This document shows, one piece after another, positions 19,851 through 35,835 of a stretch of DNA of 64,000 nt. The stretch spans positions 43,501-107,500 of the forward strand of contig CAJHZI010000426.1 of NCBI GenBank assembly GCA_905160935.1, read 5' to 3'. The translations under genes and the position numbers were made by a program. Source of the DNA: Enchytraeus crypticus (Eukaryota > Annelida > Clitellata > Enchytraeida > Enchytraeidae). The notes beneath the pieces are model-generated. The model was not told the DNA's origin, ran no database searches, and saw nothing but the letters and a program-made list of their open reading frames with translations. Every line of letters begins with the position of its first letter. Positions within the stretch are counted from its first letter, which is position 1.

Positions 19851-22800
19851 CGATTTATATGGTTTTAAGTATTGCTATATTGTGATATATGTTGATAAAC
19901 GATGAGATATAGTGATATATAGTTTTAAATGGTGCTATATTGTTGTATATTGATATACGCTGAGATTTAGTTATATATATAGTTTTAACTATAAAAAAAA
20001 TATTAACCGGCATTATAGTGAAATGATCAACTATGTCGATATCTATCACTTTTTAATACCACATGTTTTTAACCGTTAGACAATTTAGTCCATTTTCCGT
20101 ATAACCAGTGCAGTGAATGTCCGAGATTTAATTCTCAGATCAGCGCGGCTGGGATTCGAACCCGCGAGAATTCAATTCACCTCAGGATCTATCATTTAAA
20201 CCTTCATGACGTTATCCCTACGCTATCGAGACATTCAAACTAGTGCTATTGTGATATATAGTGATATATAATGCTCTACTATTATATTCTTACAGGGCCT
20301 GCGCGGATAAACTCTACACTTCTAAGCTAACCGGTCAATCCATGTTTAAGGTAATACGATAAATAATTAATCATAAGAAAGAATATCTAAACTAAATATT
20401 TTAATTGCTTTCTGGTGACTCATTGATTTACTCTAACTTGTTGTTGACTGGCGGATACATCATTTAGTACGAGTACAATTTCTCTGTGAATTTGTACTGC
20501 GGTGTAGTTTATCTTCATAAAGCTTGATTGACTGATTTACTGACTGAATCGATTGATTAATTGATTGATTGATTAAATGATTTGACTGACTGATTTGATT
20601 GACTGACAGATTGACTGATTTGATTGACTGACAGATCGACTGATTTGGTTGAGTGATTGATTGATTGAGTGATTGATTGATCGATAGACTGATTTGGTTG
20701 ATTGATTGATTAACTGATGTGGTTGATTGATTGATTGATTTATTGTTAGAGTGCTAAGAGTGACGCTGAGAGTGAGATTTATCGACAAATCAACGTCAAG
20801 ATTGAAGAATTCTTTGAACTGGGTGAGTCGCCCGTAACATCAGTGATGTTGTTATTGTTGTTGATGTGGTTGTTGTTGTTGAACTGTGGCTCGATTCGCT
20901 TGTCTTATGTTTATAGTTAGAAAATGGTATCTATGAAACTCATATACGCTCCTGTATGTTTATGTAAAAAAATTGTGCAGCTGAATACGATTGGCTGATA
21001 ATTATATCTTGCGTTGTGCAGCTGAATACGATTGGATGATTATTATATTTTTCGTTGCGCAGCTAAATACGATTGGCTGATAATTATGTCTTTCGTTGTG
21101 CAGCTGAATACGATTGGATGATGGGCCATTGCGAGGAGGAGCCCAGTGGGTATATAACTGACATGATTGCATTTCTGCGTGGAACATTCAAATCTTTTAC
21201 TAATCTACCGGTCAGTCTCTCAACACTAAATATTAAGTCTCTATAAATTCTTACAAACATACAAGTGTATGCGTGTTAGTTGGTAAATATACAAGCAATA
21301 TAAAAGTGGCTACCATAAAAGGGCCGGAACTCTGTGCGGTAATGATATATGCTCACTAAGATAGTCAAAAGTGTGCATTATGAAAGAAACTGCATTACCA
21401 AATAGTGCATTGTAGAGTCTTCATTTTTATAAGTGCTGCATTATTACAATTTCTCGCATTATTGCAAATGGTGCACTATTACAAGTGCTGTATTATTGCA
21501 AATGGTGCATTATTACAAGTGCTGTATTATTACTAGTGTTGTATTATTAAAAGTGCTGCATTATTACAAGTGCTGCATTATTTGATTGATTGATTAGATT
21601 AAGGTAGCGCAGATAGCCTGTATGTCAGCCTGTAAGCTCATATCTCGGCTACTGATTTATTGATTGATTGATTGATTAAAATAAGGTAACGCAGACAGCC
21701 TGTATGTCAGCCTGTAAGCACATATCTCGGCTACTGATCTATTGATTGAATGATTGATTAGATTAAGGAAGCACAGACAGCCTGTATGTCAGCCTGTAAG
21801 CTCATATCTCGGCTACTGATCTATTGATTGATTGATTGATTAGAATAAGGTATCGCAGACAGTCTGTATGTCAGCCTGTAAGCACATATCTCGGCTACTG
21901 AGCTATTGATTGAATGATTGATTACAATAAGGTAGCGCAGACAGCCTGTATGTCAGCCTGTAAGCACATATCTCGGTTACTGATCTATTGATTGATTGAT
22001 TGATTAGATTAAGGTAGCACAGACAGCCTGTATGTCAGCCTGTAAGCATATATCTCGGCTACTGATGGAGCTACTCGTGGATGAAGAGGTGAAGTCAATA
22101 TCAACAGCACTGCTCAAACAGGTCGATAGAGACGTGCAAGAGTGCGAGTGTATGTCTCTCTCTGTCTCTGTCTCTCTCTCTCTCTTCTACATCTCTCTGT
22201 TGCCCTCTCTTTCTTTCTAACTTTCATTCTCTCCCTCTTTCTCTCTTTCTTTCTTTCTTTTTCTCTCTATATTTCTCCACTCTTACATCCCCTCGCTGTT
22301 ACTCTCTTTCTAACTTTCCTTCTCTCTCTCTCTCACTCTCTCTCTCCCTCTCACTTGATCAATCTCTCTCTCTCTCTTTTGATTATTATAACTTATTTGT
22401 TTGGTAGATACTGTGATACTATTTTAAAGTACTTTCATCATGTTTTATATGTCCATATAACTGATATGATATAACAAGTGTACTTTGCATCATGGTCTAG
22501 TTATTGTTGAGAAATAGGCTGTAGATAATTAGGCGAAATATTTATTATTTCTAATGATTTTAATTTGCTTTGATTGAATCAATATTGAGTCATAATTGAT
22601 AGAGTGACTGACTTATGGACTAATTAATTGACTTATATTTTGAATGACTGATTAGTATATTGATAGATTGATTAATTAAATGATTGATTGATTTTAGCGT
22701 TTGCTGAAGAGAATCCCATTCCAGGCCTTGACGGTAAAACATTCAAGATGGCTTTCGCAGATCTGCGTCAGGTTAGATGTTATCATCATTGTTGTATTGT

Positions 22801-24067
22801 TGCATTGTTCTATTGTTGCATTCTTTCATTGATGCATCGTTGCATTGTAGTATTGTTGTAATGTTGCATTGTTGCTTTGATGTATTCTTGCATTGTTGTG
22901 CAGGTAGTAATATTATCTTGCGTTGCTGTAATGTTAGATTGCTGCATTGTTTTGTTGTTGCATTGTTTTGTTGTTGCTTCTTACTCTAAAATCTATCAAT
23001 CAACCGCTCTTATGAAGTCACATGACTTTCTGAAGGACGTCAATTGTGCTAAATAATATGCCATTTAAATTTTATACCTATAATGAATTAATAATTACTG
23101 ATTGTCATTACCTCTAGATTATAGAGTTTTTCAATGCTGTAAGATTGTGGTGTTTTGTGTGATTATGGTGTTTTGTGACATTGTGGTGTTTTGTAAAATG
23201 GTATTTTATAAGATTGTGGTGTTTTTTAAGATTATGGTTTTTTGTGACTTGTGGTGTTTTGTTAAATGGTATTTTGCAAGGTTGTGGTATTTTGTGTGTT
23301 ACAGTTGCTCGACCTTTTTCTGAACTGGGACTGGCCAGACTATTTCTCAAACTATGGAAAAGATCAGAGCAAGTTTGTTCGAGTCAACCCGTCCACCAGT
23401 ATACTACTGCTAGAAAAGTATGTGAGAAATATCTGTCAGATGTTATTAAAAGCTTTTAACGTTTGCTTCCCTGTCCATGTAACATATCCGACACGTTTTT
23501 CTTCATATATCCTCATCATCTTCCCTTGATTCGCAGTTTAGTTAAGGTGAGGATAGGAATAGACTATCCATTCGTTTTAGAATTTTTTTAGCCATTTCTG
23601 GAGACTAAGCGCCCACCAACTGAATGCCCAGCCAATAACCATAACGATACCTACAAGTTACATGTATTAACGATTATAATTGTCACATATGTGATAATCG
23701 ACATGTTTGTTGTAATGTGTAGGCCTATACAGTATGCACACTTAAAGCAGACTCCCTATATTTATCATATAGCAGTAAACCTGCTGATGAAATGTGGAAT
23801 ATTAGTCTAACGAGGAATATCGCAATGAACAGATTGGAAAAATAAATATTATTTACCAATTTATTTGGTAATTAATGAACAGATTGGAAAATCAACCAAT
23901 TTATTTGGTAATTAATGAACAGATTGAGAGAAGGAGAGAAGAAGAAGAACAACAATCTGTTCAGTGCTCTTAAGAGGGATGAGAGAGACAAGAAGAAGCT
24001 TCTCGACACAGTACTCAAACAGCTTAGATTCCTCATCAGTGAACAGCACGTGTCACAGTTTAACTAG
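1875..24067 (+). CDS. EXOC6: Exocyst complex component 6 (Sec15), 3' part of gene, 18 exons
   Basis: Sec15 subunit of the octameric exocyst, which tethers secretory vesicles to the plasma membrane; in the family the C-terminal Sec15 domain binds Rab GTPases such as Rab11. Exons: 1875-2072, 2987-3055, 3963-4046, 8304-8350, 9047-9167, 9807-9878, 10366-10415, 12495-12648, 12970-13079, 17007-17118, 18910-18989, 20296-20350, 20750-20822, 21104-21210, 22008-22149, 22698-22771, 23305-23417, 23923-24067. All introns are GT-AG and all phases agree; the sum is 1806 nt, 601 codons plus TAG. Hallmark peptides, close to vertebrate EXOC6/EXOC6B as I recall them, are QDLIDFAPVYRCLHIYSVL, FEEDNYTPI, LKFSEDLHL, LLTRTL, YLEDFITN and RVNPSTSILLLEK. 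Vertebrate proteins are about 800 residues, so roughly 200 N-terminal residues are missing to the left. Its introns are loaded with repeats, several of them built from its own splice sites. Invertebrates usually have one gene for the vertebrate EXOC6/6B pair. Confidence 0.95.
2091..2215 (+). repeat. tRNA-derived SINE, family B
   Basis: Begins GGCTGGAGCCAGTGGCGA. It has an A-box-like segment TGGCGACGTCGGTAAG and a B box GGGTTCAAATTCTGG, then the family 3' end with TTTCGAGTGAG and CTGACGTTAA. About thirteen copies occur in the window. It starts within 20 bases of the preceding EXOC6 donor. Confidence 0.85.
2216..2986. other. EXOC6 intron, mostly unique, with a partial family F repeat
   Basis: There is no exon between the SINE and the next acceptor. 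At about 2675-2790 a TCAA tract leads into a half copy of the fold-back family F (TAAGAATTTAACCTCCGGTT). A family E-like snippet lies near 2400-2440. Otherwise nothing is recognised. Confidence 0.5.
2987..3055 (+). CDS. EXOC6: EXOC6 exon 2 in window
   Basis: Acceptor TTTTATAG, donor GTAAGT, phase 0 to 0, 23 codons: ATAA then QDLIDFAPVYRCLHIYSVL. This matches a highly conserved Sec15 segment. Two other AGs within ten bases downstream (2993, 2996) would also keep or nearly keep the frame, so NAGNAG-like acceptor variation is possible. Confidence 0.92.
3530..3724. repeat. ATT/ACT trinucleotide-rich tract
   Basis: A low-complexity run of TTA, TTATTA and ACTATT units with no open frame worth calling. 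It leads directly into an inverted copy of the first 18 bases of the following SINE-B. Confidence 0.7.
3708..3863 (+). repeat. tRNA-derived SINE family B with palindromic head
   Basis: The SINE starts near 3731 with CCAGTGGCGATATTGATA. The bases just before it (about 3708-3725) are the exact reverse complement of that 18-base head, separated by a six-base loop. The rest of the copy is full length, with B box GGGTTCAAATCCTGG and tail AACTGACGTTAACC. A second copy with a hairpin at its head end lies at 18568-18738. Confidence 0.8.
3963..4046 (+). CDS. EXOC6: EXOC6 exon 3 in window
   Basis: Acceptor TTGTCGCAG, donor GTCAGT, phase 0 to 0, 28 codons. The translation begins GIKDTFESYYRKQRRKQARL and matches the vertebrate ENYYRKQRKKQARLVLQ block. 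Confidence 0.95.
5114..5405 (+). repeat. 18-bp minisatellite TATCATCTTTGTTATCTG
   Basis: About 16 tandem copies with TTT/TGT variation at one triplet. Because the unit is a multiple of three, open frames exist on both strands here, but they encode only a six-residue periodic peptide and are not genes. Confidence 0.9.
5640..5812 (+). repeat. TTATCTC-type low-complexity array
   Basis: Imprecise repeats of GTTATCTCTATTATCTCT. They are related in composition to the array at 5114-5405 but separated from it by unique sequence resembling dispersed family D. Confidence 0.8.
5905..6120 (+). repeat. TCAA microsatellite followed by inverted TTGA tract
   Basis: A run of about 25 TCAA units with occasional G substitutions, then after 50 bases a TTGATTGATTGA tract in opposite sense, forming an imperfect inverted repeat. 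Confidence 0.85.
6395..6840 (+). repeat. TTAGTGATTGATTA array
   Basis: Tandem units of TTTAGTGATTGATTA, regular at first and decaying after about 6560 into TTAGTGAGTGATT and TTAGTCGGTGATT variants. It lies in the middle of the intron, away from splice sites. Confidence 0.85.
7231..7452 (-). repeat. SINE family A copy preceded by an AAT tract
   Basis: An AAT microsatellite (7231-7268) abuts the 3' end of a minus-strand SINE-A that is cut off within its tRNA head at GGATCTGT. B box GGGATTCGAACCC on the complement. It looks like a SINE with a simple-repeat tail. Confidence 0.8.
7725..8140 (+). repeat. 49-bp minisatellite split by a SINE
   Basis: Units of about 49 bp around CTAGGACATGCCACTGATGA and GAAGCTTCTGTTGTATTG. 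Two copies lie before and four after the SINE-B at 7827-7962, so the SINE inserted into an existing array or the array grew around it. The downstream copies are more alike than the upstream ones. Confidence 0.85.
7827..7962 (-). repeat. tRNA-derived SINE, family B
   Basis: A full-length minus-strand copy: CTAAGGTTAACGTCAGTTTT at one end and CATCGCCACTGGCTCCAGTC at the other. It sits within the 49-bp minisatellite. Confidence 0.85.
8304..8350 (+). CDS. EXOC6: EXOC6 exon 4 in window
   Basis: Acceptor TTTTGTACAG, donor GTCTGC (weak), phase 0 to 2, 47 nt. Translation TETLEGYKAYFYDIVG, matching vertebrate HETVDGYRRYFTQIVG; the final Gly codon is completed by the next exon. Confidence 0.92.
8470..8690 (+). 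repeat. TTATCATACGTTATTAGATG imperfect array
   Basis: Loose 12-13-bp units (GTTATCATGC, GTTATTAGAT) between EXOC6 exons 4 and 5. No coding potential. Confidence 0.75.
9047..9167 (+). CDS. EXOC6: EXOC6 exon 5 in window
   Basis: Acceptor ATATTTGCAG preceded by a CTGACTGTCAGG triplicate and TTGATTGAT; donor GTATGT; phase 2 to 0. Translation starts FFVVEDRILSTTTGLINQSY and ends AVLRTHI, as in vertebrate FFVVEDHIL and AVLRAHSS. Confidence 0.95.
9536..9735 (+). repeat. Diverged tRNA-SINE related to family A
   Basis: The head AATGTCTCAATGGCTCAG and body GAGAGTAGAATCTCGCAC resemble family A. The end reads CTGACCTTGACGTTAAACCC, the tail motif seen in families B and C, so this copy looks like a hybrid or a separate subfamily. 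Confidence 0.65.
9807..9878 (+). CDS. EXOC6: EXOC6 exon 6 in window
   Basis: Acceptor TTTTGTCAG, donor GTACGT, phase 0 to 0, 24 codons. Starts GFCTDTTLLLQVKNLIML. A nearer AG at 9818-9819 was excluded because it would put a stop in frame. Confidence 0.92.
10140..10365 (+). repeat. Intronic array abutting the EXOC6 exon 7 acceptor
   Basis: About ten copies of a 21-bp unit (TTATTGACAGCTGCTATTTA) run into the true acceptor TTATTGTTAG. Many units contain TTGACAG, so they look like 3' splice sites themselves. No exon bases are included in the unit. Confidence 0.85.
10366..10415 (+). CDS. EXOC6: EXOC6 exon 7 in window
   Basis: Acceptor GTTATTGTTAG, donor GTGAGA, phase 0 to 2, 50 nt. Translation GYGFSVSQLYELLLGV, matching vertebrate GYGFPVNRLFDLLFEI; the split Arg codon is finished in exon 8. 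Confidence 0.93.
10810..12392 (+). mobile_element. Mariner-like DD37E transposon, apparently complete
   Basis: The ends are inverted repeats of about 39 bp: TAGGGTGTCGCATAAGTTCG on the left is mirrored by the right end at about 12354-12392. TA dinucleotides flank both sides (10808-10809 and 12393-12394), the expected Tc1/mariner target duplication. It carries one transposase frame on the plus strand. Insertion is into the EXOC6 intron between exons 7 and 8, on the sense strand. The near-identical ends and open frame suggest a recent arrival. Confidence 0.93.
11109..12200 (+). CDS. Transposase, IS630/Tc1/mariner superfamily, DD37E
   Basis: 363 codons without interruption. The N-terminus has a helix-turn-helix region (EGYSHKCIAQKLNRSKCWVT) and a GRPKILS linker like the GRPR motif. 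The catalytic triad is visible: Asp 159 in FTDESPF, Asp 263 in FQQDGARCH and Glu 301 in SPDLSPIENLW, with 37 residues between the last two, hence DD37E. A second ATG eight codons in (11133) may be the real start, as the helix-turn-helix begins soon after. Function in the family is cut-and-paste transposition at TA. The enzyme may still be active; that is an inference from integrity alone. Confidence 0.93.
   Translation: MRPRIIYNMDKIKIIQLRAQAVVLAKEGYSHKCIAQKLNRSKCWVTKWVGRSKFDEKLVDMKRSGRPKILSNTAKRLIQSAKYRRGQSLRRISNQLKIRNERASKDTIRRYMVNDLKWKNWRRKKIPLLTDAHKVKRIKFARDHRNWTVQDWSNVLFTDESPFKVFYIPNPKNDTVWGSQESNVPPAAQMKFSPSVMVWGGMTAHGLTSLHFIPNGTRLNSDYYIVNILDKLVKPAFQRIVTGGNVTRVKLFNDNDLGIFQQDGARCHTSAKTTRWLEDNIPSYIKPKDWPPNSPDLSPIENLWSILSFSVYRDPEPTNVVQLKRRLQQAWRSVKVEILQTLIKSMPDRILAVIKQKGNTIKY
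12495..12648 (+). CDS. EXOC6: EXOC6 exon 8 in window
   Basis: Acceptor ATCTCTAAG, donor CAGGTTAAC, phase 2 to 0, 154 nt. Reads DQYSEILRKKWVEVFNKIFE then EDNYTPISVETEEEYQRIV and TIYPFNDPALEQ. This is among the most conserved Sec15 blocks. Confidence 0.96.
12970..13079 (+). CDS. EXOC6: EXOC6 exon 9 in window
   Basis: Acceptor ATTGGACAG, donor CAGGTTAGA, phase 0 to 2, 110 nt. Reads APFPKRFPFSQFVPRVY then TEVKEYIYGCLKFSEDLHL. The upstream intron has two weak copies of GATTGTTGTAATATG. Confidence 0.95.
13200..13500 (+). repeat. 43-bp minisatellite, seven copies
   Basis: The unit covers GTGTGGTCTATGTGAGTTCA and TGAACTTGTTCAGTCACTAC. The first and last copies have GAGGTCA in place of GAGTTCA. It lies about 120 bases after the donor of EXOC6 exon 9 and includes the small palindrome GTTCAATGAAC. 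Confidence 0.92.
13655..13820 (+). repeat. 21-bp minisatellite AAGATAATGTGAAGTATTAT
   Basis: About eight tandem copies. Open frames on both strands arise only from the period of 21 and encode a seven-residue periodic peptide. Confidence 0.9.
14215..14540 (+). repeat. GATTGACTGATT tetranucleotide-type tract
   Basis: A long tract of TTGA and CTGA units with rare interruptions. CTGAC and TTGAT in it both fit the branch-point consensus, but it lies 2.5 kb from the next acceptor. Confidence 0.85.
14541..16300. other. EXOC6 intron, unique AT-rich sequence
   Basis: No exon, SINE or array recognised in this 1.7-kb stretch. A short segment at about 15810-15880 (GACGGTAGCTCGAGTGTGTC, CTTGGCGTTAAG) recurs at 60560-60625 and may be a diverged SINE. 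Confidence 0.5.
16300..17000 (+). repeat. 31-bp array abutting the EXOC6 exon 10 acceptor
   Basis: About 18 copies of a unit built from CACAAGTTAGACTACTGCAA and TGGTATATAAA, interrupted near 16450-16500 by unique sequence. The last unit ends directly in the acceptor GGTGTTTCAG. The copies closest to the exon are the most alike. Confidence 0.88.
17007..17118 (+). CDS. EXOC6: EXOC6 exon 10 in window
   Basis: Acceptor GTGTTTCAG, donor CAGGTATTT, phase 2 to 0, 112 nt. Reads LMEVEDMIRKFTNVLLTRTL, then GGCLAGLIKKPHLTLLQ, matching vertebrate TEVDDMIRKSTNLLLTRTL. Its 3' splice site follows a 31-bp array and its 5' splice site starts a 17-bp array. Confidence 0.95.
17113..17410 (+). repeat. 5' splice-site array after EXOC6 exon 10
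   Basis: About 17 copies of a 17-bp unit close to CCAGGTATTTCCTGTGT. The first copy spans the real exon-intron junction TACAG/GTATTTCC. Several later copies keep CAGGTATTTCC intact, including ones near 17237, 17321 and 17337; others have TCGGATATT or CAGGGATTT in its place. Confidence 0.88.
18421..18545 (+). repeat. tRNA-SINE-like element, family C
   Basis: ATGGCATGCTTGTTTGAGAAGCATG near the start resembles the head of the elements at 30549 and 44074. A weak B box (GTTCTAATCGATGCC) and a TCACTGACGCTAAAACTTAG end follow. Heavily diverged. Confidence 0.5.
18568..18738 (-). repeat. SINE family B truncated by a perfect hairpin
   Basis: The minus-strand SINE-B body is present from 18568 to about 18662 and stops after the B box. 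The position of its head is taken by a hairpin: 18670-18690 and 18718-18738 are exact 21-base complements (TTTTAAACCTATTAGTTTAT and its complement), and ACTGGAG/CTCCAGT forms an inner stem at 18694-18714. The inner stem is made from SINE-B head sequence. Confidence 0.8.
18910..18989 (+). CDS. EXOC6: EXOC6 exon 11 in window
   Basis: Acceptor TCATTTGTAG, donor GTCTGT leading straight into a TC-rich tract, phase 0 to 2, 80 nt. Reads LIQISINMEHLDKSCVYLED then FITNLTG, matching vertebrate HLEKSCKYLEEFITNIT. Confidence 0.94.
19122..19178. repeat. TA microsatellite
   Basis: A pure TA run of about 45 bases with slight decay at its right end. A second TA run occurs at 19785-19848. Confidence 0.95.
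19202..19435 (+). repeat. tRNA-derived SINE, family A
   Basis: Full-length forward copy. The head TAGCGTAGGGGTAATG and B box GGGTTCGAATCCCGG are well preserved, and the 3' end is TTTAAACATGTGGTATAAAA. Confidence 0.87.
19438..19785 (-). repeat. Dispersed repeat family D
   Basis: A nearly complete minus-strand copy from GACCACTGCAGAATTGGGCA to CAGCCAAGTGGCAGGTTC (complement), ending at a TA microsatellite. It corresponds closely to 27412-27779 and 52478-52838. It has no open frame and no obvious terminal repeats; the class is unknown. Confidence 0.75.
20008..20236 (-). repeat. tRNA-derived SINE, family A
   Basis: Full-length minus-strand copy ending 60 bases before the exon 12 acceptor of EXOC6. 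B box GGGATTCGAACCC on the complement. Confidence 0.85.
20296..20350 (+). CDS. EXOC6: EXOC6 exon 12 in window
   Basis: Acceptor TTCTTACAG, donor AAGGTAATA, phase 2 to 0, 55 nt. Reads ACADKLYTSKLTGQSMFK, aligning to vertebrate ETVHTTRLYGLSTFK. Less conserved than its neighbours, but phase and position fit. Confidence 0.87.
20525..20749 (+). repeat. TTGA/CTGA array abutting the EXOC6 exon 13 acceptor
   Basis: GATTGACTGATTTGATTGAC-type units continue to within about ten bases of the acceptor TTATTGTTAG. The tract is rich in TTGAT and CTGAC, both of which fit the yUnAy branch-site consensus. Confidence 0.85.
20750..20822 (+). CDS. EXOC6: EXOC6 exon 13 in window
   Basis: Acceptor ATTGTTAG, donor GTGAGT, phase 0 to 1, 73 nt. 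Reads SAKSDAESEIYRQINVKIEE then FFEL, like vertebrate HAAEGEIYTKLNQKIDEFVQL. Confidence 0.94.
20964..21125 (+). repeat. Four-copy 41-bp acceptor array at EXOC6 exon 14
   Basis: GTGCAG or GCGCAG followed by CTGAATACGATTGG occurs with exon-start positions 20981, 21022, 21063 and 21104, exactly 41 bases apart. Only the last leads into the full exon. Each unit holds about 20 exon bases plus 21 intron bases including the 3' splice site. Using copy 1, 123 bases upstream and so in frame, reaches a TGA within the array; copies 2 and 3 shift the frame. Confidence 0.95.
21104..21210 (+). CDS. EXOC6: EXOC6 exon 14 in window
   Basis: Acceptor CGTTGTGCAG, donor CCGGTCAGT, phase 1 to 0, 107 nt. Reads AEYDWMMGHCEEEPSGYITD then MIAFLRGTFKSFTNLP, matching vertebrate ADYDWMTG and LIAFLRSTFAVFTHLP. 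The acceptor is the fourth of four tandem copies. Confidence 0.95.
21420..21585 (+). repeat. GTGCTGTATTATTGCAAATG-type array
   Basis: Loose 18-25-bp units around TGCATTATTACAAGTGCTG. It ends just before the first copy of the 82-bp acceptor array. Confidence 0.8.
21575..22066 (+). repeat. Six-copy 82-bp acceptor array at EXOC6 exon 15
   Basis: The unit is 59 exon bases (from ATTAAGGTAGCACAGACAGC to CTCGGCTACTGAT) plus 23 intron bases (CTATTGATTGATTGATTAG). Exon-start positions are 21598, 21680, 21762, 21844, 21926 and 22008, each exactly 82 apart. Only the last continues into the full exon. The AG of the acceptor is intact in copies 1, 3, 4 and 6 and mutated in copies 2 (AA) and 5 (AC). Copy 1 read in frame meets TGA right after the copied exon part. 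Confidence 0.96.
22008..22149 (+). CDS. EXOC6: EXOC6 exon 15 in window
   Basis: Acceptor TTGATTGATTAG, donor GTATGT, phase 0 to 1, 142 nt. Reads IKVAQTACMSACKHISRLL, then MELLVDEEVKSISTALLKQV and DRDVQECE, matching vertebrate GKVAQTACMSACKHLATSLM. An AAG six bases later would drop the first two codons. Donor runs into a TC-rich tract. Confidence 0.95.
22150..22380 (+). repeat. TC-rich low-complexity tract
   Basis: CTCTCTCTTTCT-type sequence starting at the donor of EXOC6 exon 15. Open frames across it encode only Ser/Leu-rich low-complexity peptide. Confidence 0.85.
22698..22771 (+). CDS. EXOC6: EXOC6 exon 16 in window
   Basis: Acceptor TTGATTGATTTTAG, donor CAGGTTAGA, phase 1 to 0, 74 nt. 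Reads FAEENPIPGLDGKTFKMAFA then DLRQ, matching vertebrate FARSGPVPGFQEDTLQLAFIDLRQ. Confidence 0.95.
22785..22985 (+). repeat. ATTGTTGCATTGTT array
   Basis: Imprecise 12-bp units starting about 15 bases after the exon 16 donor. Confidence 0.8.
23140..23300 (+). repeat. TGTGGTGTTTTGTGTGATTA array abutting the exon 17 acceptor
   Basis: About nine loose 17-21-bp T/G-rich units running to the acceptor GTGTGTTACAG of EXOC6 exon 17. The array itself serves as the polypyrimidine-poor intron end. Confidence 0.82.
23305..23417 (+). CDS. EXOC6: EXOC6 exon 17 in window
   Basis: Acceptor GTGTTACAG, donor AAGTATGTG, phase 0 to 2, 113 nt. Reads LLDLFLNWDWPDYFSNYG, KDQSKFVRVNPSTSILLLEK, matching vertebrate LLDLFMVWDWSTYLADYG and LRVNPNTALTLLEK. 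Confidence 0.96.
23510..23660 (+). repeat. Dispersed repeat family E
   Basis: Contains TCATCATCTTCCCTTGATTC, GCAGTTTAGTTAAGGTG and CTGAATGCCCA, shared with 24605-24860 and in shorter form with 29696-29745, 51970-52056 and 53400-53460. Starts with a CATCAT tract. Class unknown. Confidence 0.6.
23824..23926 (+). repeat. Acceptor-region triplication at the last EXOC6 exon
   Basis: AATGAACAGATTG occurs at 23824, 23874 and 23914. The spacers share ACCAATTTATTTGGTAATTA. Only the third copy is followed by the exon. The units are mostly intron and include the splice site and the first few exon bases. Confidence 0.88.
23923..24067 (+). CDS. EXOC6: EXOC6 terminal coding exon
   Basis: Acceptor AATGAACAG, phase 2 in, TAG at 24065-24067. 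Reads LREGEKKKNNNLFSALKRDE, then RDKKKLLDTVLKQLRFLI and SEQHVSQFN, matching vertebrate KNNIFAQFRKNDRDKQKLIETVVKQLRSL. No clear AATAAA was seen in the next 600 bases, so the 3' UTR end is not set. Confidence 0.95.
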
Positions 24068-24604
24068 TCCCACTCTTCTGTAGAAACTAATTGTAATATA
24101 TGTCCGCCTACGTGTAAATAGTGTAGCTATGAGATTACGGCTAGATAACGTTTGCTGCCCGTGATTTATTGCTTATAGCGCCCCTTGGTGAAAAAGTCAA
24201 ATTATGCATTCTGTGTGTGCATAATGTGCATTCTGTTATTTTCGCTATTTGTATAGATGTCACAAACTATTAAGTTTCTACTTCACTCGGTTACTTAGTT
24301 ACGAAACATCTAAGCTCCAGATTACGTCAATGGACGCTCTTGACTGTTCTAGGGATAAGCTATTTGTCAAATCTTACGGTTGTCATCCCGTCATCCTGTG
24401 TCCATTTCTTTGATTGAGACTCGAGATCTTTCATAGTCTCACTGAGTGAAGGAACGCTTGAGTCGTTTTAGTTTGTCAACTTTCTGAACGTTCACCTATG
24501 TTAAATGTGCCTGTTAATCTCTTACTCCCCACGATGACATCTTTAGTGTATGGCAGTATGGCACTTAAGTGTGATTTTCCTGCTGTTGTTCAGCTGTTTA
24601 TTTA

Positions 24605-24860
24605 TTGTTCATTATCATCAGCATCGATTCATCATCATCATCATCATCTTTCTTTGAGTCCCAGTTTAACTAGGATGGAGATATGAATGGATCTTCTCTA
24701 TTCCTCAAACTTTTCCATTCGTTGTAGAAAACAATTTAGCAATTCTAGAGCCTACTAACTCACCAACCGAATGCCCATTCTGACGTCCGGTTTAGATCCA
24801 AATGCTTTGTCGCCTTTAATGATACGTACAGTCCACGGTCGGTCTATTCTTCTGCAACCC
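24605..24860 (+). repeat. Dispersed repeat family E, longer copy
   Basis: CATCATCATCATC tract, then GTCCCAGTTTAACTAGGATG and CACCAACCGAATGCCCATTC. It extends further than the copy at 23510, with GTCCACGGTCGGTCTATTCT, a motif also seen near 60855. Confidence 0.6.
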
Positions 24861-25276
24861 GGACGCAACACTTTTAGTTTATTTATTTTGTTCAATCTTG
24901 ACAATTTGGTATCAGTCCAGCCTTTGTGATATCCTTGTTTGAAATTATTGCTTAATGTATACGAAATGATGTCTATAATAGAAATCTGTGCCTTGGTTCT
25001 GTCACGTGGCAGATATATCTTTAGATAATAATTGTCACTTATACCCAATCTTATAAACGGAAAGATATTCTCGCCGATATAAATCTCTACCATTTGACTT
25101 TATCCTCGAGATAACTACAAATCTGCTTCTTGCATCTTATGAAACTTTTCTATTCTCAACTTTGTCTTGAGCCTGTTATGTTACATTTCCAAGAATTCAA
25201 AACGTTTGCGCGGATTTCGCGCTCTCCTATTGACTGTAGCCACCTGCGACGATTGCAAGTCAGCCTCCTGGCGACG

Positions 25277-25613
25277 ACTTTGTTTTAATCTAACGGTGAC
25301 ATATCCGCCCGATCTCGACAAGATATAGCTCCGTCACATGTAGCTGAAATCAGCTCAGATGCCGAGCGACATCTCGTTCATAGTATGCAAAAGCGACTTT
25401 CGGCGTCGATATCGTTCTGATTGAAGCTTTATAGGATTGCACATTTGTTTAAATCAAACGGTGACATTAACCACCCGAGCTCGAGAAGATATAGTTCCCG
25501 CTACAAGTAGGCCTAGCTGAAATCAGCTCAGATGCCGAGCGACATCTCGTTCATAATATGCAAAAGCGACTTTCGGCGTCGATATCGTTCTGATCTTCGC
25601 TTTATAGGATCGG
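25277..25613 (+). repeat. Two direct repeats of about 165-173 bp
   Basis: Both units contain AACGGTGACAT, then GCTGAAATCAGCTCAGATGC, CGAGCGACATCTCGTTCATA and GCAAAAGCGACTTTCGGCGT, then CTTTATAGGAT. They are more GC- and CpG-rich than the surroundings. GCTGAAATCAGC is a perfect 12-base palindrome. No open frame spans them. Confidence 0.9.
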
Positions 25614-27411
25614 CTATTAATTAGTGTAGTCATTATAGATTGAAGAAATGAACGTTAAACTATTGGAACTGTTTTAATTGGGTGATCAGAGCATTGCTTT
25701 CTGGTGCTAATCGAGTGATAAATTTGATTGATTGATTGATTTTGATTAATTGATGACCAGCTTCTGGTTCTTTTCTGTTTGAATAATTTTATTTCTAATT
25801 GTAATTTTTATGTCATACTGATTTTTTTTTTTTTTTCTATTATTCTTTATTCTATTATTTATTCTATTATTCTTTATTTTCTTTATTATTGCTTTAGTCG
25901 CCTGCTACGGCACATGCAGCAGTTTAACGAATCTTTACATGAGTAGTTTTATAAGGGGCTCCAGTCATTGCTGAATTCTCATTTCTCTGCTGAATGCACT
26001 TGTAAAGTCAAGTGGTGAAGACTGTCGGTCGTCAGCTAGATTGGTGCAGTCAGCTAGATAGGTGCAGTAGAATCACTGGTCACGTGACGACAGATCTTAA
26101 ATAGAATGACTCATTCACTCGTGTGTCGTTGAGACGTCACTAATAGTCATCATTGAACGAGGAAACAGCCGTTAAACTTCTATCATTCGTATTGTTTCCT
26201 ATCACTGAGTTACTGTTTAATAATAATAATAATACTAATAATAATGATACTAAAAATGATTAATAATTATTTTGAGCGACAAGTAAATTCTGCCAGATTT
26301 TAACCCCTGTTTCGTCTGTCGAAGGACTCATTAGTGACACTTATAAGAGAGTTGAGATCTTGCTGCCTAGAGGCCACAGCTTTGCTATGCGCTTGTAGAA
26401 TGCCCGATTGCAGAGCCTTTAGGCTGAAAAGTCAATACAAATCTGCCTGTTATCACGTCTTAAAGCTATTCTGAAAGCGCAAGTGTAGTATGATAGAGTG
26501 ACTTTATATTTACATTGAATTGTTTGATATAACTTCAATTGTTTGATTGATCAACGATGTTATCTTTACAGTGAGCGATACAGTGGCGCTTAGTAATTTA
26601 TGCCATGGATCGTATATTATATGATTCAACACTAGTGACGCACAACGGTTTTATATTTTATTCACAGTCTCAATACAACAAGCAGCGGTTATGTCGTAGG
26701 TGGGTTAATCGATGTTACAAATTATAATAGATGAGATTCGAACCACCGCCAGTGGAATGAAATAGTTTAACGTCAATTTCCTCACTTGCAGCAGCTTTCA
26801 GTCACGTCTTAAACCGACAATAGCAACAATTACAATCACTATCTTCATCGCTCGTCCATCAAAACATCCAGGACGGTGAAAAAATATACTGAATTTTTTT
26901 ATTTTTTAGATAAAAATTTCATAACATTAAAATAAGCAAAATAAACATTCGTTAAGCTGTGATAATCATCTTGGTACATCCTTAATAAATCAGAAAAATT
27001 TCTAAATAAGACCAGCTTATAAGCTTTAACAAATCATCATCATCTTCTCATGTATCCCAGTTTAACTAGGGTCGGAATACGAAGCTTTAACAAATATATT
27101 AAATGTATTTGTTATTGTATGCAATACAAATATAGGGCAATACGTGCGTTTAGCTCCACAAGCCAAGGTTAAATTTTTATGTTAACAATGTGTTATTAAG
27201 AATTTATGCTAACATTGTGTTATTCTGCGATCACATAAAGGAATGTGTTAGCCTACACATTTGTTAGTAATGCTCCAGTAGGCACCAGTGTTAGTAATGC
27301 TCTAGTAGGCATGTGTGAGCAAACTAAATAATAAATCAAAATGATACCATCGTCAATGACATACCGAGCTTACTATGAAGCAAATCAAACATGATTGACC
27401 ATATTAGTATT

Positions 27412-28109: not shown

Positions 28110-28140
28110 TTTCTTTCTATCTTTTATCTGTCTCTCTCTT

Positions 28141-28182
<42 letters not shown>

Positions 28183-29019: not shown

Positions 29020-29097
29020 ACAACAACAACAACAATTAGACCGCTACGTTCGTCCACGCTAACATCAAGCACTATGAAGCTAGAGTTAATCCGTTAA
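29020..29097 (+). repeat. Family G fragment
   Basis: ACAACAACAACAATTAGACC followed by CATCAAGCACTATGAAG, matching the start of family G copies at 53745 and 59925 (complement). Confidence 0.5.
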
Positions 29098-30171
29098 GTA
29101 TTTCAGTAACTACGGTAGCTTCAACATTAGCAGAAATATATGATAAAGTTTATTGTAAGATAAACACAAGAACACACGTAACAATCAATATCTTTACAAA
29201 TAATTACCAACAGATTGCTAATATCTCTAGCTTTGATTGAGATTCCATAAAGTAAACAACTTATTAAGCAATAAAAGTGGATTTAATTTCCATTTTGTCA
29301 TCCGATGATGACATCACGAGTGTTCAAATTAGAGTAGAGATTAAAAATATTTTCATCCTGAACAAAATGTCAAAATATAAATGCATCAAAAATAAACAAT
29401 GTTGTTATTGGCCTACATGTAGATTTCATTGGTAATATAATCTACCCTACAACAATATAAAATAAAGGCAGAGTCTTAAAAAATCAAAAATAGTGCAAAA
29501 ACTTAGAGATTTTTTAAATACAGAAAAAGCAGTCTAAAAAAACTATAAAAATTTAAATAGTTTCAATAACTCGTAAAGTAAATTTACAGAGACACTGAAA
29601 GAGTTCTAAAAAGCAAATTACAACATTTTCAGTTTCTCAAATTGGACTTCGGAAGATAGCAATAGTTATAAACCTGATGACACACTTAGAATATCGGCGT
29701 CATCATCATCCTCCCCAGAAACCCAGTTAACCAGGGTCGGAAAAATAACATCATATAATAAATAGAAAATTAATGTTAGAAAAATAGACTGCAGGAAAAA
29801 TAATTAAGAAAACAAGTGACACTGTAAATCTGATCAATCAATCAATCAATTAACTATTGTATATCTTCATTACATGCTGCCAAGTCTCAGGACAAAAATG
29901 GCTGTGTAGACGGACAGAACCGATGTGCCTGGCAGAATTGTTTTCAAAAATTCTATTGAAGGCCAATTGATGTCTACGTACATGCCTTTAAATGCAAGAA
30001 AGCCAAAGGAATGCAATTGTTTTAAAGCAGAGGGTTTTATCAACTGCTAAAAAACTCAACTCAAAATTACAAACTCAGTACATAAAGATATAAATAAAGT
30101 TCCCAACAGACCCTGAATTAATATCATGTGGCACTAAACTAATACAAAAATATCAATGATTTAGCTACACG

Positions 30172-30297
30172 GCTGGAGCCAGTGGCGAAGTCGGTAAGAC
30201 ACTCGACAGCGGATCAGTATGTGCGGGTTCAAATCCTGGACTCGCCCGTCACTGACTCGCTTTCAAGTGAGGAAACTGACGTTAACCTTAGCTTAGC
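30172..30297 (+). repeat. tRNA-derived SINE, family B
   Basis: Full-length copy: GGCTGGAGCCAGTGGCGAAG, B box GGGTTCAAATCCTGG, tail GAAACTGACGTTAACC. Confidence 0.87.
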
Positions 30298-30548
30298 TTT
30301 ACTTTACATGCGGGAAGTTGTGAATCAATAAATTACACGTAAATCTCATGTAAATTAATAAAAACTTATATATCAACAAAACTGATTGGCTATTTCAAGC
30401 AAAACCAGACGATATATGTTGCAGTGAAATGATACAATAAATTCCCTAAAACTGTATCCATGCAAGCAGTAGGCGATCATGATCTTCCACAAAACATCCT
30501 GGCCATAATTACACTAACGAAACAATTACTAAAACTAACTTTAGTAAC

Positions 30549-30690
30549 AGTAGGATGGTCGAATTGGTAGCATGCTTAACTAAGAAGCAAGAGGTCATAG
30601 GTTCAAATCCCAACCAGGACACCTCTGAAGATATTCTATAAAATATTTGTAATAATAACCTCCGACAATTTCTATAGCGGTGTCACGGCT
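30549..30690 (+). repeat. tRNA-like SINE head, family C
   Basis: GGATGGTCGAATTGGTAGCA with B box GGTTCAAATCCCAA; similar to 44074. The anticodon-arm-like part is TGCTT/AAGCA around a seven-base loop, but no acceptor stem closes, so it is not a working tRNA gene. The following 40 bases (CTCCGACAATTTCTATAGCG) recur in reverse complement at 58263-58305, which marks them as part of the repeat. Confidence 0.6.
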
Positions 30691-30788
30691 GGTGTCCAGT
30701 CTTCGAGACCGCTTTACAGGTTCCTGACAGGTTATATGATGCGGAAACAGCCTTTAGCTTAGATCTAGCTTCCACAGTAAGAACTTCA

Positions 30789-30973
30789 TCAGTGCACAGA
30801 GCGACTTTCGTACTCTTTCTTGTCACCAGGGGGCCCGGGGGGCTGGGGGGTGGTAGATATCTCAGTGGGGTGAGTGAGGTTAGAGGAGGAATAGGACACA
30901 ACGTTACTGTAGCAGAGCAACGGGTCGTTCTCTGTGCTGTGCCACATTCCATAGGCGAAATAGATGAGAAACC
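30789..30973 (-). CDS. SLC7A4: SLC7A4-like exon 4 (terminal)
   Basis: Acceptor TATGTACAG preceded by TTGATTGATTGATTGAT; phase 1 in; stop TGA. Starts GFLIYFAYGMWHS, the last membrane helix of the CAT family, and ends in a Pro/Ser-rich tail (TPQPPGPPGDKKEYESRSVH). Its first bases are amplified into the array at 31000-32800. Confidence 0.94.
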
Positions 30974-33900
30974 CTGTACATATCAATCAATCAATCAATC
31001 AATTCTCAGAGCTCTGCCACATTCCATAGGCGAAATAGATGAGAAACCCTGTACATATCAATCAATCAATCAATCAATTCTCAGAGCTCTGCCACATTCC
31101 ATAGGCGAAATAGATGAGAAACCCTGTACATATCAATCAATCAATCAATTCTAAAAGCTCTGCCACATTCCATAGGCGAAATAGATGAGATGATTACTAT
31201 CACAACCTCTCTGTTGGTTGGTGAGTGCACTACAGAAATTTACTGATCCTTACTCTGGTTAAACAGGGATTCAAGGGAAGATGATGATAATTATTAATTT
31301 GTTGCTATTAAAAGCCTGCATATTTTGAGAAGAGAGCATTGTAGCATTGTGCCATACCCCATAGGCGAAATAGATGTGAAACCCTGTCATATCAATCAAT
31401 CAATCAATCAATAGGCGAAATAGATGTGAAACCCTGTCATATCAATCAATCAATCAATCAATAGGCGAAATAGATGTGAAACCCTGTCATATCAATCAAT
31501 CAATCAATCAATAGGCGAAATAGATGTGAAACCCTGTCATATCAATCAATCAATCAATCAATAGGCGAAATAGATGTGAAACCCTGTCATATCAATCAAT
31601 CAATCAATCAATAGGCGAAATAGATGTGAAACCCTGTCATATCAATCAATCAATCAATCAATAGGCGAAATAGATGTGAAACCCTGTCATATCAATCAAT
31701 CAATCAATCAATAGGCGAAATAGATGTGAAACCCTGTCATATCAATCAATCAATCATAGATGTCAATCAATCATCAATCAATCAATAGGCGAAATAGATG
31801 TGAAAACCCTGTCATATTCAATCAATCAATCAATCAATAGGCGAAATAGATGTGAACCCTGTCTAATCAATCAAAAATAGATGTGTGAATCAATAGGCGA
31901 AATAGATGTGAAACCCTGTCATATCAATCAATCAATCAATCAATAGGCGAAATAGATGTGAAACCCTGTCATATCAATCAATCAATCAATCAATAGGCGA
32001 AATAGATGTGAAACCCTGTCATATCAATCAATCAATCAATCAATAGGCGAAATAGATGTGAAACCCTGTCATATCAATCAATCAATCAATCAATAGGCGA
32101 AATAGATGTGAAACCCTGTCATATCAATCAATCAATCAATCAATAGGCGAAATAGATGTGAAACCCTGTCATATCAATCAATCAATCAATCAATAGGCGA
32201 AATAGATGTGAAACCCTGTCATATCAATCAATCAATCAATCAATAGGCGAAATAGATGTGAAACCCTGTCATATCAATCAATCAATCAATCAATAGGCGA
32301 AATAGATGTGAAACCCTGTCATATCAATCAATCAATCAATCAATAGGCGAAATAGATGTGAAACCCTGTCATATCAATCAATCAATCAATCAATAGGCGA
32401 AATAGATGTGAAACCCTGTCATATCAATCAATCAATCAATCAATAGGCGAAATAGATGTGAAACCCTGTCATATCAATCAATCAATCAATCAATAGGCGA
32501 AATAGATGTGAAACCCTGTCATATCAATCAATCAATCAATCAATAGGCGAAATAGATGTGAAACCCTGTCATATCAATCAATCAATCAATCAATAGGCGA
32601 AATAGATGTGAAACCCTGTCATATCAATCAATCAATCAATCAATAGGCGAAATAGATGTGAAACCCTGTCATATCAATCAATCAATCAATCAATAGGCGA
32701 AATAGATGTGAAACCCTGTCATATCAATCAATCAATCAATCAATAGGCGAAATAGATGTGAAACCCTGTCATATCAATCAATCAATCAATCAATCAATTC
32801 TCAGAGCAAATAACTTACCGACTAGTAGCCAGATGATGAGACGAACCCAGGTGTAGACGTTTAACTGCAGCATCATGCCAATGTTCAGCATCATACTGAC
32901 TACAGGTAGCAGTGGAGCACAGGGTACCTGCGTCAATCAATCAATCAATTAATTGATTAATCAATCAATCAATTAATTAGTTAAACAGAGAATCACACCA
33001 ATGTTCAGCAACATACCAAGTTAAGGTAACACTGATGCACACGGTATCTGAGTTAATCAATCAATCAATTAATCAATTATAAAAAAATGATGGCAGAGAA
33101 AAAAATTATTTTTTGCTTGATCCTTTCAAACAAAGTCAACATATTTCGTAACATCTTCACTGTAAGAATTACCACTCAGCTCAATGCTGGAGAAAAGAAC
33201 GACCCCGACATTCTAGTCTATCAATCAATCAATCAGTAAGAATTTAACATCCAGTTCCTCGCCATAAGGCAATGTCAGGGTCGTCTAACAGCAACATCAT
33301 GTAACTCCTAGAGAAATGACGTCCCAGATATGGCGAGGAACCGGACGTTAAATTCTTACTGATTGATTGAAAAGATTAACTCAACATTCCATTCTAACAG
33401 CAACATCAAAGACTACGAAGCAGTAAAGCTGGAAAAGCTAAGGTTAACGTCAGTTTCCTCACTCGAAAGCGATGTCAGTGACGGATGAACCCAGGATTTG
33501 CACCCCACATATACTGATCCACAGTCGAGTATCTTACCGACATCGCCACTGGCTCCAGTCAGTAACACAACAACAAAAATAGACGCACCTGAAACGTAAG
33601 AAAACTCTTGTTCTGCTCATGAGCAATGAGCAGCAAGAAGAAGACGATGAGCCCGATGCAGAAGAGAACAAGCAACAAGATGCTCCACCACACGGCACGA
33701 CCCAGGTAGTCGTTGGCCTTGAGAACCAGCAGCCAGAAAGCGACCATGAAGACCGTTAGTCCACACACCGCCAGCACTCCGGCGTAGCCGGGCGGTATAC
33801 GAGCCAGCAGCGGCAGGGAGAGGAGTCTCTTCTTGAGTTTGCCGATGTCGTCGTGGCTTTGAGACGCTGGCATGAGGTTACGTCTGTCGCCCGCCGCTCC

Positions 33901-35835
33901 ACTGCCCACAGCGCCACCTGGGCAATATAAATAATAATATTATCATAATATTAAACATTAATATTATAATAATATAATAATATTATAACATTAATAAATA
34001 ATATTATCAATAATATAATATCTCTACACAGCGCCACCTGGGCAATATAAACAATATCTCTACACAGCGCCACCTGGGCAATATAAACAATATCTCTACA
34101 CAGCGCCACCTGGGCAATATAAACAATATCTCTACACAGCGCCACCTGGGAAATGTAAAACAATCTGTTAAATAGGCTATAATTTTAACTTCAGCAGTAT
34201 CACAAGGGCAGATACACAGCAGTAAGTCTAATGAATTTTAAAATATAAAAATATTAAAGCATACATTTATAATGATACATGTTTTACTGATTTTCTGGAT
34301 TTTGAAATTTGCAACATTTTTGGACCCAAATTTTGCTCACTGAATTGATTTTGACTCAATAGCGCTCGACGTTGTCCTTGATGACTGTAGGACTCTAATT
34401 GCTGTTATTATTATTAATAGAAACTTGACAGACCAAGGAAATACCGGACTCCTTTCGAGTGAGTAAACTGACATTAACCTTAGCTTTACCAGCTTTATAT
34501 CAGACACCTACCTAGAGAAGTTGAATCCCCGACACTGGAGTCATCCATGGAAGTGGCGTCATCGTTGAGTGAGAGTGAAGAGGGATCAGGTTTCAGTTTG
34601 AACTGACACTTATCGACCGGCTCATAATGCAGCACCACCACGCACGCAGCCACTATGGTGAACCCCAGCAGTGTTCCTATCGACAGCAGTTCAACCAGTA
34701 CCTCCAGGTCCACCAGCAGTGCCAGCACTCCCGCGAGAATACCAAACACAATGATCGACAGAATAGGAGTCTGAGTCTTGGAGTTGACGTAGGAGAACGG
34801 CCGGAAGAACAGGCCGTCGGACGCCATGGCGTAGACAGATCGAGGGAGAGAGAAGAGAGATCCGAGGAGAGATGTGGAGATGCCCACGAGAGCTCCGATA
34901 GCGATGACGTATTTCGCCCAGCTGAGTCCGTGCTGGGAGAAAGCGTTAGGAAACGGTGCCGCTACGTCGACACTGTCGTATGGCACCATGAGACTCAAAG
35001 TAGCGGCACAACCCACGTACAGCACGCTCGCTATGGCAACAGCCATTCCGGTCGCGAGTGGAATGGTTTTCTCGGGATTCTTAGCTTCCTCTCCAGCAAT
35101 AGCGATACCTTCGAATCCTATGTAAGCGTAGAAACATGATCCGGCTCCTGCAATTACACCGGAAAATCCATGAGGGAGGAATGTGGACCAGTTAGAGGAA
35201 TCGGAAAGATAGAATCCCAGACCAATGATGAGACAGAGAATGGTTATGTTGATGACTGTAAGGATGCTGTTAAATGTTGTCGATACTTTGGCTCCGGCAC
35301 AGACGAACGCGACCACAAGAAGAACTGCAAGAAGAGCGATGAAGTCTGGATAGTGGCTGAACCACGGAACATCCATTCTTCCGACGTGTTCCATCGTTCC
35401 GTTCTTGATCTTTCCAGCAAATAAAGAATCAAAGGAACCACTCCAGGCTCTGGCAACCGATGCTGCACCGATGATATTCTCCAGTATCATACTCCAGCCG
35501 ACTATAAACGCTACAAACTCTCCTATAGTAACGTATGTGTAGGTATACGAAGAACCCGCTTTAGGGACCCTTGCACCGAATTCAGCGTAGCAGAGTGCTG
35601 ATAGGACGGCAGCGATTGCGGCAAGGGTGTATGATATCACTATACCAGGACCAGCTACGTTCTTCAGGACTGTTCCAGTAATCACAAAGATTCCAGCACC
35701 AACCATGTGACCAACGCCAAACAGTACGAGGTCAAAAAGGTTGAGGCATCGACTGAGCGGTGTTTCGAGAATGTCTGTGTTCAGTTTCTTCTTTCTGGTG
35801 AGTTTTGAGAGGAAGTTCAAGACAGCTGAAGACAT
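30789..35835 (-). CDS. SLC7A4: Cationic amino acid transporter, SLC7A4-like, complete
   Basis: Multi-pass plasma-membrane protein of the APC superfamily, CAT subgroup, which in the family moves arginine, lysine and ornithine; transport by SLC7A4 itself is disputed. Coding exons on the minus strand: 35835-34512, 33917-33589, 32927-32819, 30973-30789; phases agree and total 1947 nt, 648 residues. Start context AAAATGT. Early residues show LSRCLNLFDLVLFGVGHMVG, then CYAEFGARVPKAGSSYTYTY, and later CFYAYIGFEG and LFSLPRSVYAMASDGLFF. VPWFSHYPDF and the VSTTFN region are closest to SLC7A4 as I recall it, rather than CAT-1. The last two exons carry the C-terminal permease domain (TWVRLIIWLLVGFLIYFAYG). 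Introns 1 to 3 each hold copies of the following splice site. SLC7A14-type is the main alternative. Confidence 0.93.
30974..32810 (-). repeat. Giant acceptor/exon-start array in SLC7A4-like intron 3
   Basis: Next to the exon are three longer copies (about 76 bp each, with CCACATTCCATAGGCGAAAT) near 31014, 31090 and 31158; the last lacks the splice site. From 31361 to about 32793 there are 28 copies of a 50-bp unit (ATAGGCGAAATAGATGTGAA, CCCTGTCAT, then ATCAATCAATCAATCA). They start at 31361-31711 and 31943-32743 in steps of exactly 50, with three irregular ones between. On the minus strand each unit reads TTGA tract, ATGACAG acceptor, then the first 23 exon bases; translated in frame it gives GFHIYFAY and a stop. 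Between the two blocks (31200-31330) is unique and family E-like sequence. Confidence 0.96.
32819..32927 (-). CDS. SLC7A4: SLC7A4-like exon 3
   Basis: Acceptor TTGATTGACGCAG, donor GGTAAG, phase 0 to 1, 109 nt. Reads VPCAPLLPVVSMMLNIGMML then QLNVYTWVRLIIWLLV, the CAT family VP..P.LP motif and penultimate helix. Confidence 0.95.
32993..33053 (-). pseudogene. Decayed partial copy of SLC7A4-like exon 3
   Basis: On the plus strand ACACCAATGTTCAGCAACAT and CACACGGTATCTGAG parallel the exon's ATGCCAATGTTCAGCATCAT and CACAGGGTACCTGCG. The copy includes the acceptor (CTCAG on the minus strand) and the first 50 or so exon bases, with an in-frame TAA. It is flanked by TCAA tracts like the real exon and lies about 65 bases upstream of it in gene sense. 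Confidence 0.8.
33226..33369. repeat. Fold-back element, family F
   Basis: 41-base arms, 33226-33266 and 33329-33369, complementary but for about two mismatches (TCAGTAAGAATTTAACATCC versus its partner GGACGTTAAATTCTTACTGA), around a 62-base loop. TCAA/TTGA tracts form the arm ends. A half copy occurs at 2675-2790. Confidence 0.85.
33428..33560 (-). repeat. tRNA-derived SINE, family B
   Basis: Full-length minus-strand copy in SLC7A4-like intron 2, hence on the coding sense of that gene. B box slightly degraded (GGTGCAAATCCTGG). Confidence 0.85.
33589..33917 (-). CDS. SLC7A4: SLC7A4-like exon 2
   Basis: Acceptor TTATATTGCCCAG, donor CAGGTGCGT, phase 1 to 0, 329 nt. A cytosolic loop (GAVGSGAAGDRRNLM, KLKKRLLS) leads to two hydrophobic helices (VLAVCGLTVFMVAFWLLVL and WWSILLLVLFCIGLIVFFLL) and ends EQNKSFLTFQ. 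Confidence 0.94.
34021..34160 (-). repeat. Four-copy 36-bp acceptor array in SLC7A4-like intron 1
   Basis: GCGCCACCTGGGCAATATAA repeats at 34031, 34067, 34103 and 34139, exactly 36 apart; the real junction has the same block at 33911, 120 bases away beyond an ATA-rich tract. On the minus strand each unit is TTTATATTGCCCAG plus the first 11 exon bases GTGGCGCTGTG. The fourth copy has GGGAAATG. In frame each copy meets TAG at once. Confidence 0.95.
34310..34415 (-). repeat. Family G copy
   Basis: TTTTGGACCC, TTTTGACTCAATAGCGCTCG and GACTGTAGGACTCTAATTGC match the minus-strand copy at 59925-60040. Ends in a TTATTATTA tract. Confidence 0.65.
34442..34496 (+). repeat. SINE family B, 3' fragment
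   Basis: Only the tail (TTTCGAGTGAGTAAACTGAC, ATTAACCTTAGCTTTACCAG) is present; it stops 15 bases from the donor of SLC7A4-like exon 1. Confidence 0.75.
34512..35835 (-). CDS. SLC7A4: SLC7A4-like exon 1
   Basis: 1324 nt, from ATG to donor CTAGGTAGGT, phase 1. Encodes about 10 membrane helices of the permease core plus a cytosolic Ser/Asp-rich stretch (DDATSMDDSSVGDSTSL) that is interrupted by the first intron. Having most of the protein in one exon suggests intron loss or an ancestral retrocopy. Confidence 0.95.

Follow-up and report, generated by a model that had tools for sequence, protein, structure and literature searches.

Tandem arrays that copy intron/exon boundaries were found in 7/7 genes that we modeled in Enchytraeus crypticus, located on five contigs (C333, C189, C641, C446, and C410). 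Acceptors carry such copies at the background rate of the intron, donors lie below it (at about half of the expectation in the genes not chosen for repeats), and exon interiors are near zero. With a probability of about 0.78, we interpret these arrays as minisatellites of the type named ‘mirages’, in which the growth of an intronic array would spill over a junction while the exon-proximal site stays in use, the copies being tolerated rather than used. The original prediction concerned six acceptors in the window (the whole stretch of 64,000 nt analyzed here; C333:43501-107500 in an assembly of 524,188,772 bp and 802 contigs). At all six, copies of the acceptor and the exon start are present on the intron side according to Tandem Repeats Finder (TRF), inspection, and a gapped junction search. 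At least one same-intron copy occurs at 6/21 acceptors of the window (3/18 in EXOC6 and 3/3 in the SLC7 gene), in agreement with the predicted ‘six of about twenty’ introns. The presence of boundary arrays in all seven genes also bears out the claim that they represent independent, recurrent events.

The plus-strand gene of the window is EXOC6/Sec15 (Pfam Sec15_C, E-value 3e-106), and the minus-strand gene encodes an SLC7-type permease (Pfam AA_permease_2, E-value 6e-49), labeled ‘SLC7A4-like’ by the original prediction. The EXOC6 exons were modeled by hand with one open frame kept, and the SLC7 gene was modeled by hand only. A purpose-written spliced protein-to-genome aligner matched 19 out of 22 hand-made EXOC6 introns exactly. 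The three introns that were not reproduced are the linker and the two introns flanking the alternative exon 14544-14655, which was skipped by the aligner. The EXOC6 linker exons (C333:42361-C333:46487) were not placed, and one 4.1-kb ‘intron’ at this site may therefore hide exons. Two optional EXOC6 exons (x1 and x2) were excluded from the counts. The EXOC6 exons 14544-14655 and 17007-17118 (+ strand) are homologous, both 112 nt long and in the same phase. Since the inclusion of both or neither in a transcript would shift the frame, their arrangement resembles that of mutually exclusive exons.

The arrays and exons in the window are given in Table 1. The short repeat ahead of the last EXOC6 exon consists of ...ggtaattaatgaacag/ATTG recurring approximately 40 bp apart, with 4 exon nt copied. 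In the SLC7 gene, a distance of 120 bp separates the true junction from the nearest upstream copy of the exon 2 array, and 11 exon nt are copied, while exon 3 has a junction homologue at 33047 (true acceptor at 32927) that is absent from the TRF list. The true acceptor is indeed the exon-proximal copy, as predicted, but this holds by construction, because only that copy adjoins the remaining exon. Arrays at donors are an addition to the original prediction, which named acceptors only. The unit of the 17-bp donor array of EXOC6 falls below the length that the 30-nt junction test can handle; the array was scored 0 and not counted. EXOC6 has two further donor arrays shortly before the start of the window. 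One, at C333:39831, is a 29-bp array with the exon end and donor, of which 7 copies were matched; the other, at C333:42361, has a 70-bp unit with 39 exon nt and the donor, and the exon ending there is flanked by copies on both its sides. At C333:39817-40085, most of the 29-bp units read ...cag/GTAGATAAACTAAAG/gtaag, so that GTAGATAAACTAAAG forms a 15-nt, microexon-like unit (VDKLK) with splice signals at both ends.

Table 1. Splice-junction arrays and associated exons in the window (a slash marks the exon/intron junction).
Feature	Position	Strand	Remarks
17-bp array from donor CAG/gtattt of EXOC6 exon 17007-17118	17116..17396	+	TRF, 16.5 copies
41-bp array at the acceptor of EXOC6 exon 21104, unit ...ttgtgcag/CTGAATACGATTGG...	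20973..21122	+	TRF, 3.7 copies; 19 exon nt copied
EXOC6 exon (LAEYDWMM...)	21104..21210	+	acceptor in the 41-bp array, at the end next to the exon
82-bp array of (TTGA)n, acceptor, and 59 nt of exon	21582..22066	+	TRF, 5.9 copies
EXOC6 exon (IKVAQTACMSACKHIS...)	22008..22149	+	82-bp array holds the acceptor in its last copy
Short repeat ahead of the last EXOC6 exon	23824..23930	+	absent from TRF list; limits by eye
Last EXOC6 coding exon, including stop	23923..24068	+	
SLC7-type permease exon 1	34512..35835	-	Pfam AA_permease_2
36-bp array, acceptor tatattgcccag/GTGGCGCTGT of SLC7 exon 2	34017..34164	-	TRF, 4.1 copies
SLC7-type permease exon 2	33589..33917	-	
Single diverged upstream copy of SLC7 exon 3 acceptor and exon start	32996..33073	-	limits by eye
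SLC7-type permease exon 3	32819..32927	-	
50-bp array of (TTGA)n and gatatgacag/GGTTTCACATCTATTTCGCCTAT, decoy acceptors of SLC7 exon 4	31361..32794	-	TRF, 28 copies
75-bp array across the true SLC7 exon 4 acceptor	30928..31190	-	TRF, 3.6 copies; 46 exon nt copied
SLC7-type permease exon 4, including stop	30789..30973	-	

The total sample comprises 116 introns in seven genes, including 91 introns in five genes that were not chosen for repeats (hereafter the unbiased genes). The latter are CLTC (30 introns), PRPF8 (24 + 8 introns, 28 kb), DAW1 (11 introns), a PLCG1-like gene (three introns), and part of XPO1 (15 introns, 10 kb). CLTC, PRPF8, and XPO1 were selected for their conservation; DAW1 and the PLCG1-like gene were taken because their exons lay in stretches already in hand. 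Conserved genes were placed with human protein segments, the template letters serving only to place exons (template identity of 84.5% for CLTC and 93.4% for the PRPF8 part). PABPC1 (two introns) and TMEM184C (no introns) were dropped before counting for poor models, as were the last PLCG1-like intron (one out of four) and the duplicate last intron of the N-terminal PRPF8 part (one out of nine). No identity filter was applied otherwise, and flanking identity is low at a few kept junctions (PLCG1-like, some of DAW1, and the last CLTC intron). The exons of AP2B1, dynamin, POLR2B, and DDB1 were located and lie outside the counts. The junction search aligned 30 nt across each junction with gaps, allowing at most six edits, within the same intron and 2.5 kb; it represents one threshold family and is blind to short units and heavily diverged copies.

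EXOC6, whose segment immediately preceding the window was counted in, and the SLC7 gene together have copies at 7/25 acceptors and 2/25 donors. The corresponding numbers for acceptors and donors are 5/30 and 3/30 in CLTC, 0/32 and 2/32 in PRPF8, 2/11 and 1/11 in DAW1, 1/3 and 0/3 in the PLCG1-like gene, and 3/15 and 0/15 in XPO1. Donor arrays were thus detected by junction search in EXOC6, CLTC, PRPF8, and DAW1. In DAW1, a tandem donor series follows residue 404 (C189; L014:343-1926), where 30 copies of the donor and exon end were matched.

Expected counts assume that a junction behaves like a position drawn at random from the intron to which it belongs. In the 91 unbiased introns, 11 acceptors have a copy versus 10.7 expected (P for at least 11 = 0.52), and for all 116 introns the numbers are 18 versus 15.7 (P = 0.28). 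The convergence on acceptors that had been predicted is thus not borne out: the comparison that the original prediction proposed, acceptors against other positions of the same introns, gives no acceptor excess in the seven genes, and donors are struck as well. An acceptor-specific class of satellites, or a mechanism specific to acceptors, is rejected on these counts from seven genes, in which acceptors do not exceed other intron positions. Copies are found at six donors versus 11.7 expected in the unbiased introns (P for six or fewer = 0.019) and at eight versus 17.1 in all introns (P = 0.002). The direct comparison of acceptors with donors gives p = 0.059 for all introns (18 versus 8 out of 116) and p = 0.31 for the unbiased ones (11 versus 6 out of 91). 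With more acceptors than donors hit, and donors below expectation, junctions are not all alike. Under a stricter limit of four edits, 9/91 acceptors and 3/91 donors retain a copy (14/116 and 5/116 in the total sample). The identical search in string-reversed introns returned 0/116 acceptors and 0/116 donors (and 50/3675 intron positions), which excludes chance similarity as a source of the junction matches. Exon-internal windows with a copy in the flanking intron amount to 5/491 in the sample before XPO1 was added. All of these are several tests on one sample from one assembly and seven genes, and array rates will differ by region: repeats with a period of at least 10 cover 8.4% of 14 arbitrary 10-kb stretches (140 kb) with a range of 0.9-22.7% per stretch, and 15.4% of the window. 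Once the background is measured, a local pattern that seems striking can turn out to equal it.

These counts are consistent with a model in which tandem arrays with units of about 20-100 bp would form freely in introns, presumably via slippage or unequal exchange, and would overlap an acceptor junction at roughly the same frequency as other places in the intron. Selection on the protein would keep deeper exon sequence free of arrays. The exon-proximal site would keep working, probably favored through cross-exon recognition with the downstream donor, and the distal copies would be decoys whose use would nearly always mean a frameshift or a stop. Given these consequences, we infer that the arrays are tolerated and not used. 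Close to acceptors, some arrays probably grow out of (TTGA)n.

The distribution along the introns follows the same pattern, with one deviation. On the acceptor side of the first 79 introns, search windows with a copy make up 12-18% of the total at a distance of 200-400 nt from the junction and 22-28% at 20-180 nt. They make up 15% at the acceptor itself, and their share drops to 5% (+20), 3% (+40), and 0-1% (+60 to +100) inside the exon. On the donor side, copies are found for 14-23% of the windows within the intron, for 9% at the junction, and for 1% at +20. For introns of at least 450 nt (67 unbiased, 87 in all), the last 160 nt are denser in arrays than the middle of the intron, with 25.0% versus 14.8% in the unbiased introns (20 introns up, 11 down, p = 0.025) and 28.7% versus 17.4% in all 87 introns (p = 0.007), indicating that array placement is not quite uniform. 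The first 160 nt have no significant excess over mid-intron (unbiased 18.1%, p = 0.74; all 21.0%, p = 0.66), and setting the last 160 nt directly against the first reveals no significant difference (p = 0.24 and 0.15, respectively). The p-value for the last 160 nt shifted with the sample, from 0.009 (CLTC and PRPF8) to 0.056 (five alignments) and 0.025 (six alignments), and we regard the enrichment as suggestive.

The same intron ends are rich in (TTGA)n. The sense-strand motif TTGATTGA is present within the final 100 nt in 17/108 introns and within the initial 100 nt in 2/108 (9/85 versus 1/85 in the unbiased genes, p = 0.018), while antisense TCAATCAA is absent from all 73 last-100-nt segments examined. 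TTGA units are found in 9/18 acceptor arrays under a lenient criterion (TTGATTGA or TGATTGAT 8-mers at least as numerous as the copies), which the CLTC array at 38894 barely passes. The acceptor tract is T/G-rich and C-poor in the first 79 introns. TTGAT fits the branch-site consensus yUnAy, and we take (TTGA)n to be a branch-site-like microsatellite. Arrays could thus be seeded near acceptors, (TTGA)n at intron 3′ ends nucleating duplications that carry the acceptor and the exon start. The strand-specific motif, its presence in half of the acceptor arrays, and the denser last 160 nt speak for such seeding, but the other nine acceptor arrays have no TTGA, donors bear arrays too (8/116), acceptor occupancy does not exceed the intron mean, and the two intron ends do not differ significantly; we therefore consider it possible but rather doubtful. 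Slightly more speculative is its wider form, that the branch-site-like repeat seeds many arrays, so that the splicing signal itself would drive local duplication and about one acceptor in 6-8 would be preceded by tandem decoys. In that case, splicing would have to disregard as many as about 30 nearly identical acceptors upstream, and 3′ splice-site choice by exon definition could be tested directly in nature. The interpretation given in the original prediction is thus partly supported, in a weaker form: the last 160 nt of introns are richer in arrays and (TTGA)n is preferentially located there. The array units, which it described as unrelated in sequence, have (TTGA)n in common in the nine acceptor arrays concerned.

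The copies are spaced by about 23 to 196 bp (19 arrays) and most have preserved their splice dinucleotide. The AG is intact in 74/79 acceptor copies and the GT in 54/54 donor copies, counts that are dominated by two 30-copy arrays (SLC7 exon 4 and the DAW1 donor). This retention is accounted for by homogenization without any function, and functional decoys would look alike. Translated copies were predicted to end in a stop at once. None of the 74 acceptor copies with an intact AG is both in frame and stop-free up to the true junction, but only 24 of them are in frame, and the first stop comes 1 to 42 codons in (12 arrays). Any use of a distal acceptor would therefore be unproductive, as expected if distal acceptors were used on purpose for unproductive transcripts that lower expression. 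We consider such a role very unlikely, since any intronic extension in AT-rich DNA would probably give the same outcome (an argument from composition), the arrays are present at the intron background rate in housekeeping genes, and RT-PCR in amphioxus suggested regular splicing in the reported cases (PMC3087553). Among the 54 donor copies, 18 are in frame and four of these are stop-free, all four from one 45-bp CLTC array. This array lies in the intron after residue 548 (C189, approximately 881433-882214, - strand), which has a 50-bp acceptor array as well.

False tandem expansion at repeats during assembly has, in our view, the lowest probability of the explanations considered. Array length in any single assembly can err, and the draft genome of amphioxus reportedly contains one such array in aberrantly assembled form. 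The copies described here, however, differ from each other by substitutions and indels, the 18 acceptor and eight donor arrays are spread over seven genes and five contigs, and the coding frames are otherwise intact.

The original prediction knew of no described class of satellites of this kind, but the ‘mirage’ minisatellites of amphioxus have the same structure. They were reported in Adh3, the globin genes BflGb6 and BflGb9, troponin C, and PGBD5 (PMC3087553; PMC3902484), the PGBD5 case being added and troponin C cited in the latter paper. In the passages of these papers on which our comparison rests, three structural features recur that our arrays share at the sequence level: the tandem unit spans the intron/exon boundary (here at 18/116 acceptors and 8/116 donors), both 5′ and 3′ boundaries can be duplicated, and many copies have AG or GT while unit length varies by locus. 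The present arrays are thus, judged by these features, of a kind already described in lancelets. The amphioxus arrays were reported not to disturb regular splicing (Ebner et al., 2010; PMC3087553). In amphioxus, the described cases were noticed gene by gene, and splicing and length polymorphism were examined, whereas our arrays are known from the sequence of one assembly and were counted over 116 introns against a background; (TTGA)n in half of the acceptor arrays also sets them apart from the amphioxus cases as described. No published case outside lancelets was found among the matches listed in our literature searches, which mostly did not extend to subscription papers. A lancelet GFP sequence, run as a weak test of a cephalochordate host and with no positive control, had no match in the 524-Mb assembly. 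The Rogers model, in which introns are gained by tandem duplication of proto-splice sites (as outlined in PMC3087553), likewise involves tandem AG/GT copies inside genes that could supply new splice sites, but our arrays are known as repeats and not as new introns. They resemble ordinary intronic minisatellites in how long their units are, how far the copies have diverged, and how densely they occur in introns; what distinguishes them is that functional splice sites and coding sequence form part of the unit.

The few cases known from lancelets are hereby extended to a measured rate: in seven genes, tandem copies are found at about 12-16% of the acceptors and at 7% of the donors, at or below intron background. 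Gene prediction calls for caution at these sites, as most decoys retain AG or GT. The arrays also offer natural tests of how the exon-proximal 3′ splice site is chosen, and introns might be gained or exons lengthened from such material.

The window contains several other features. An open frame of 1219 aa (38180-41839, + strand) has no Pfam match and includes a 24-bp coding minisatellite with about eight copies (41310-41507). A single-exon, BRF2-like open frame is located at 45958-47304 (- strand; Pfam BRF2-like C-terminal cyclin repeat, E-value 2e-16); a protein search with a BRF2-like sequence gave no match. Tc1/mariner-like transposase frames (11085-12200 and 50601-50954, + strand) and several copies of tRNA-like short interspersed repeats (e.g., 3726-3860, 19240-19430, and 47505-47640) were named by eye.
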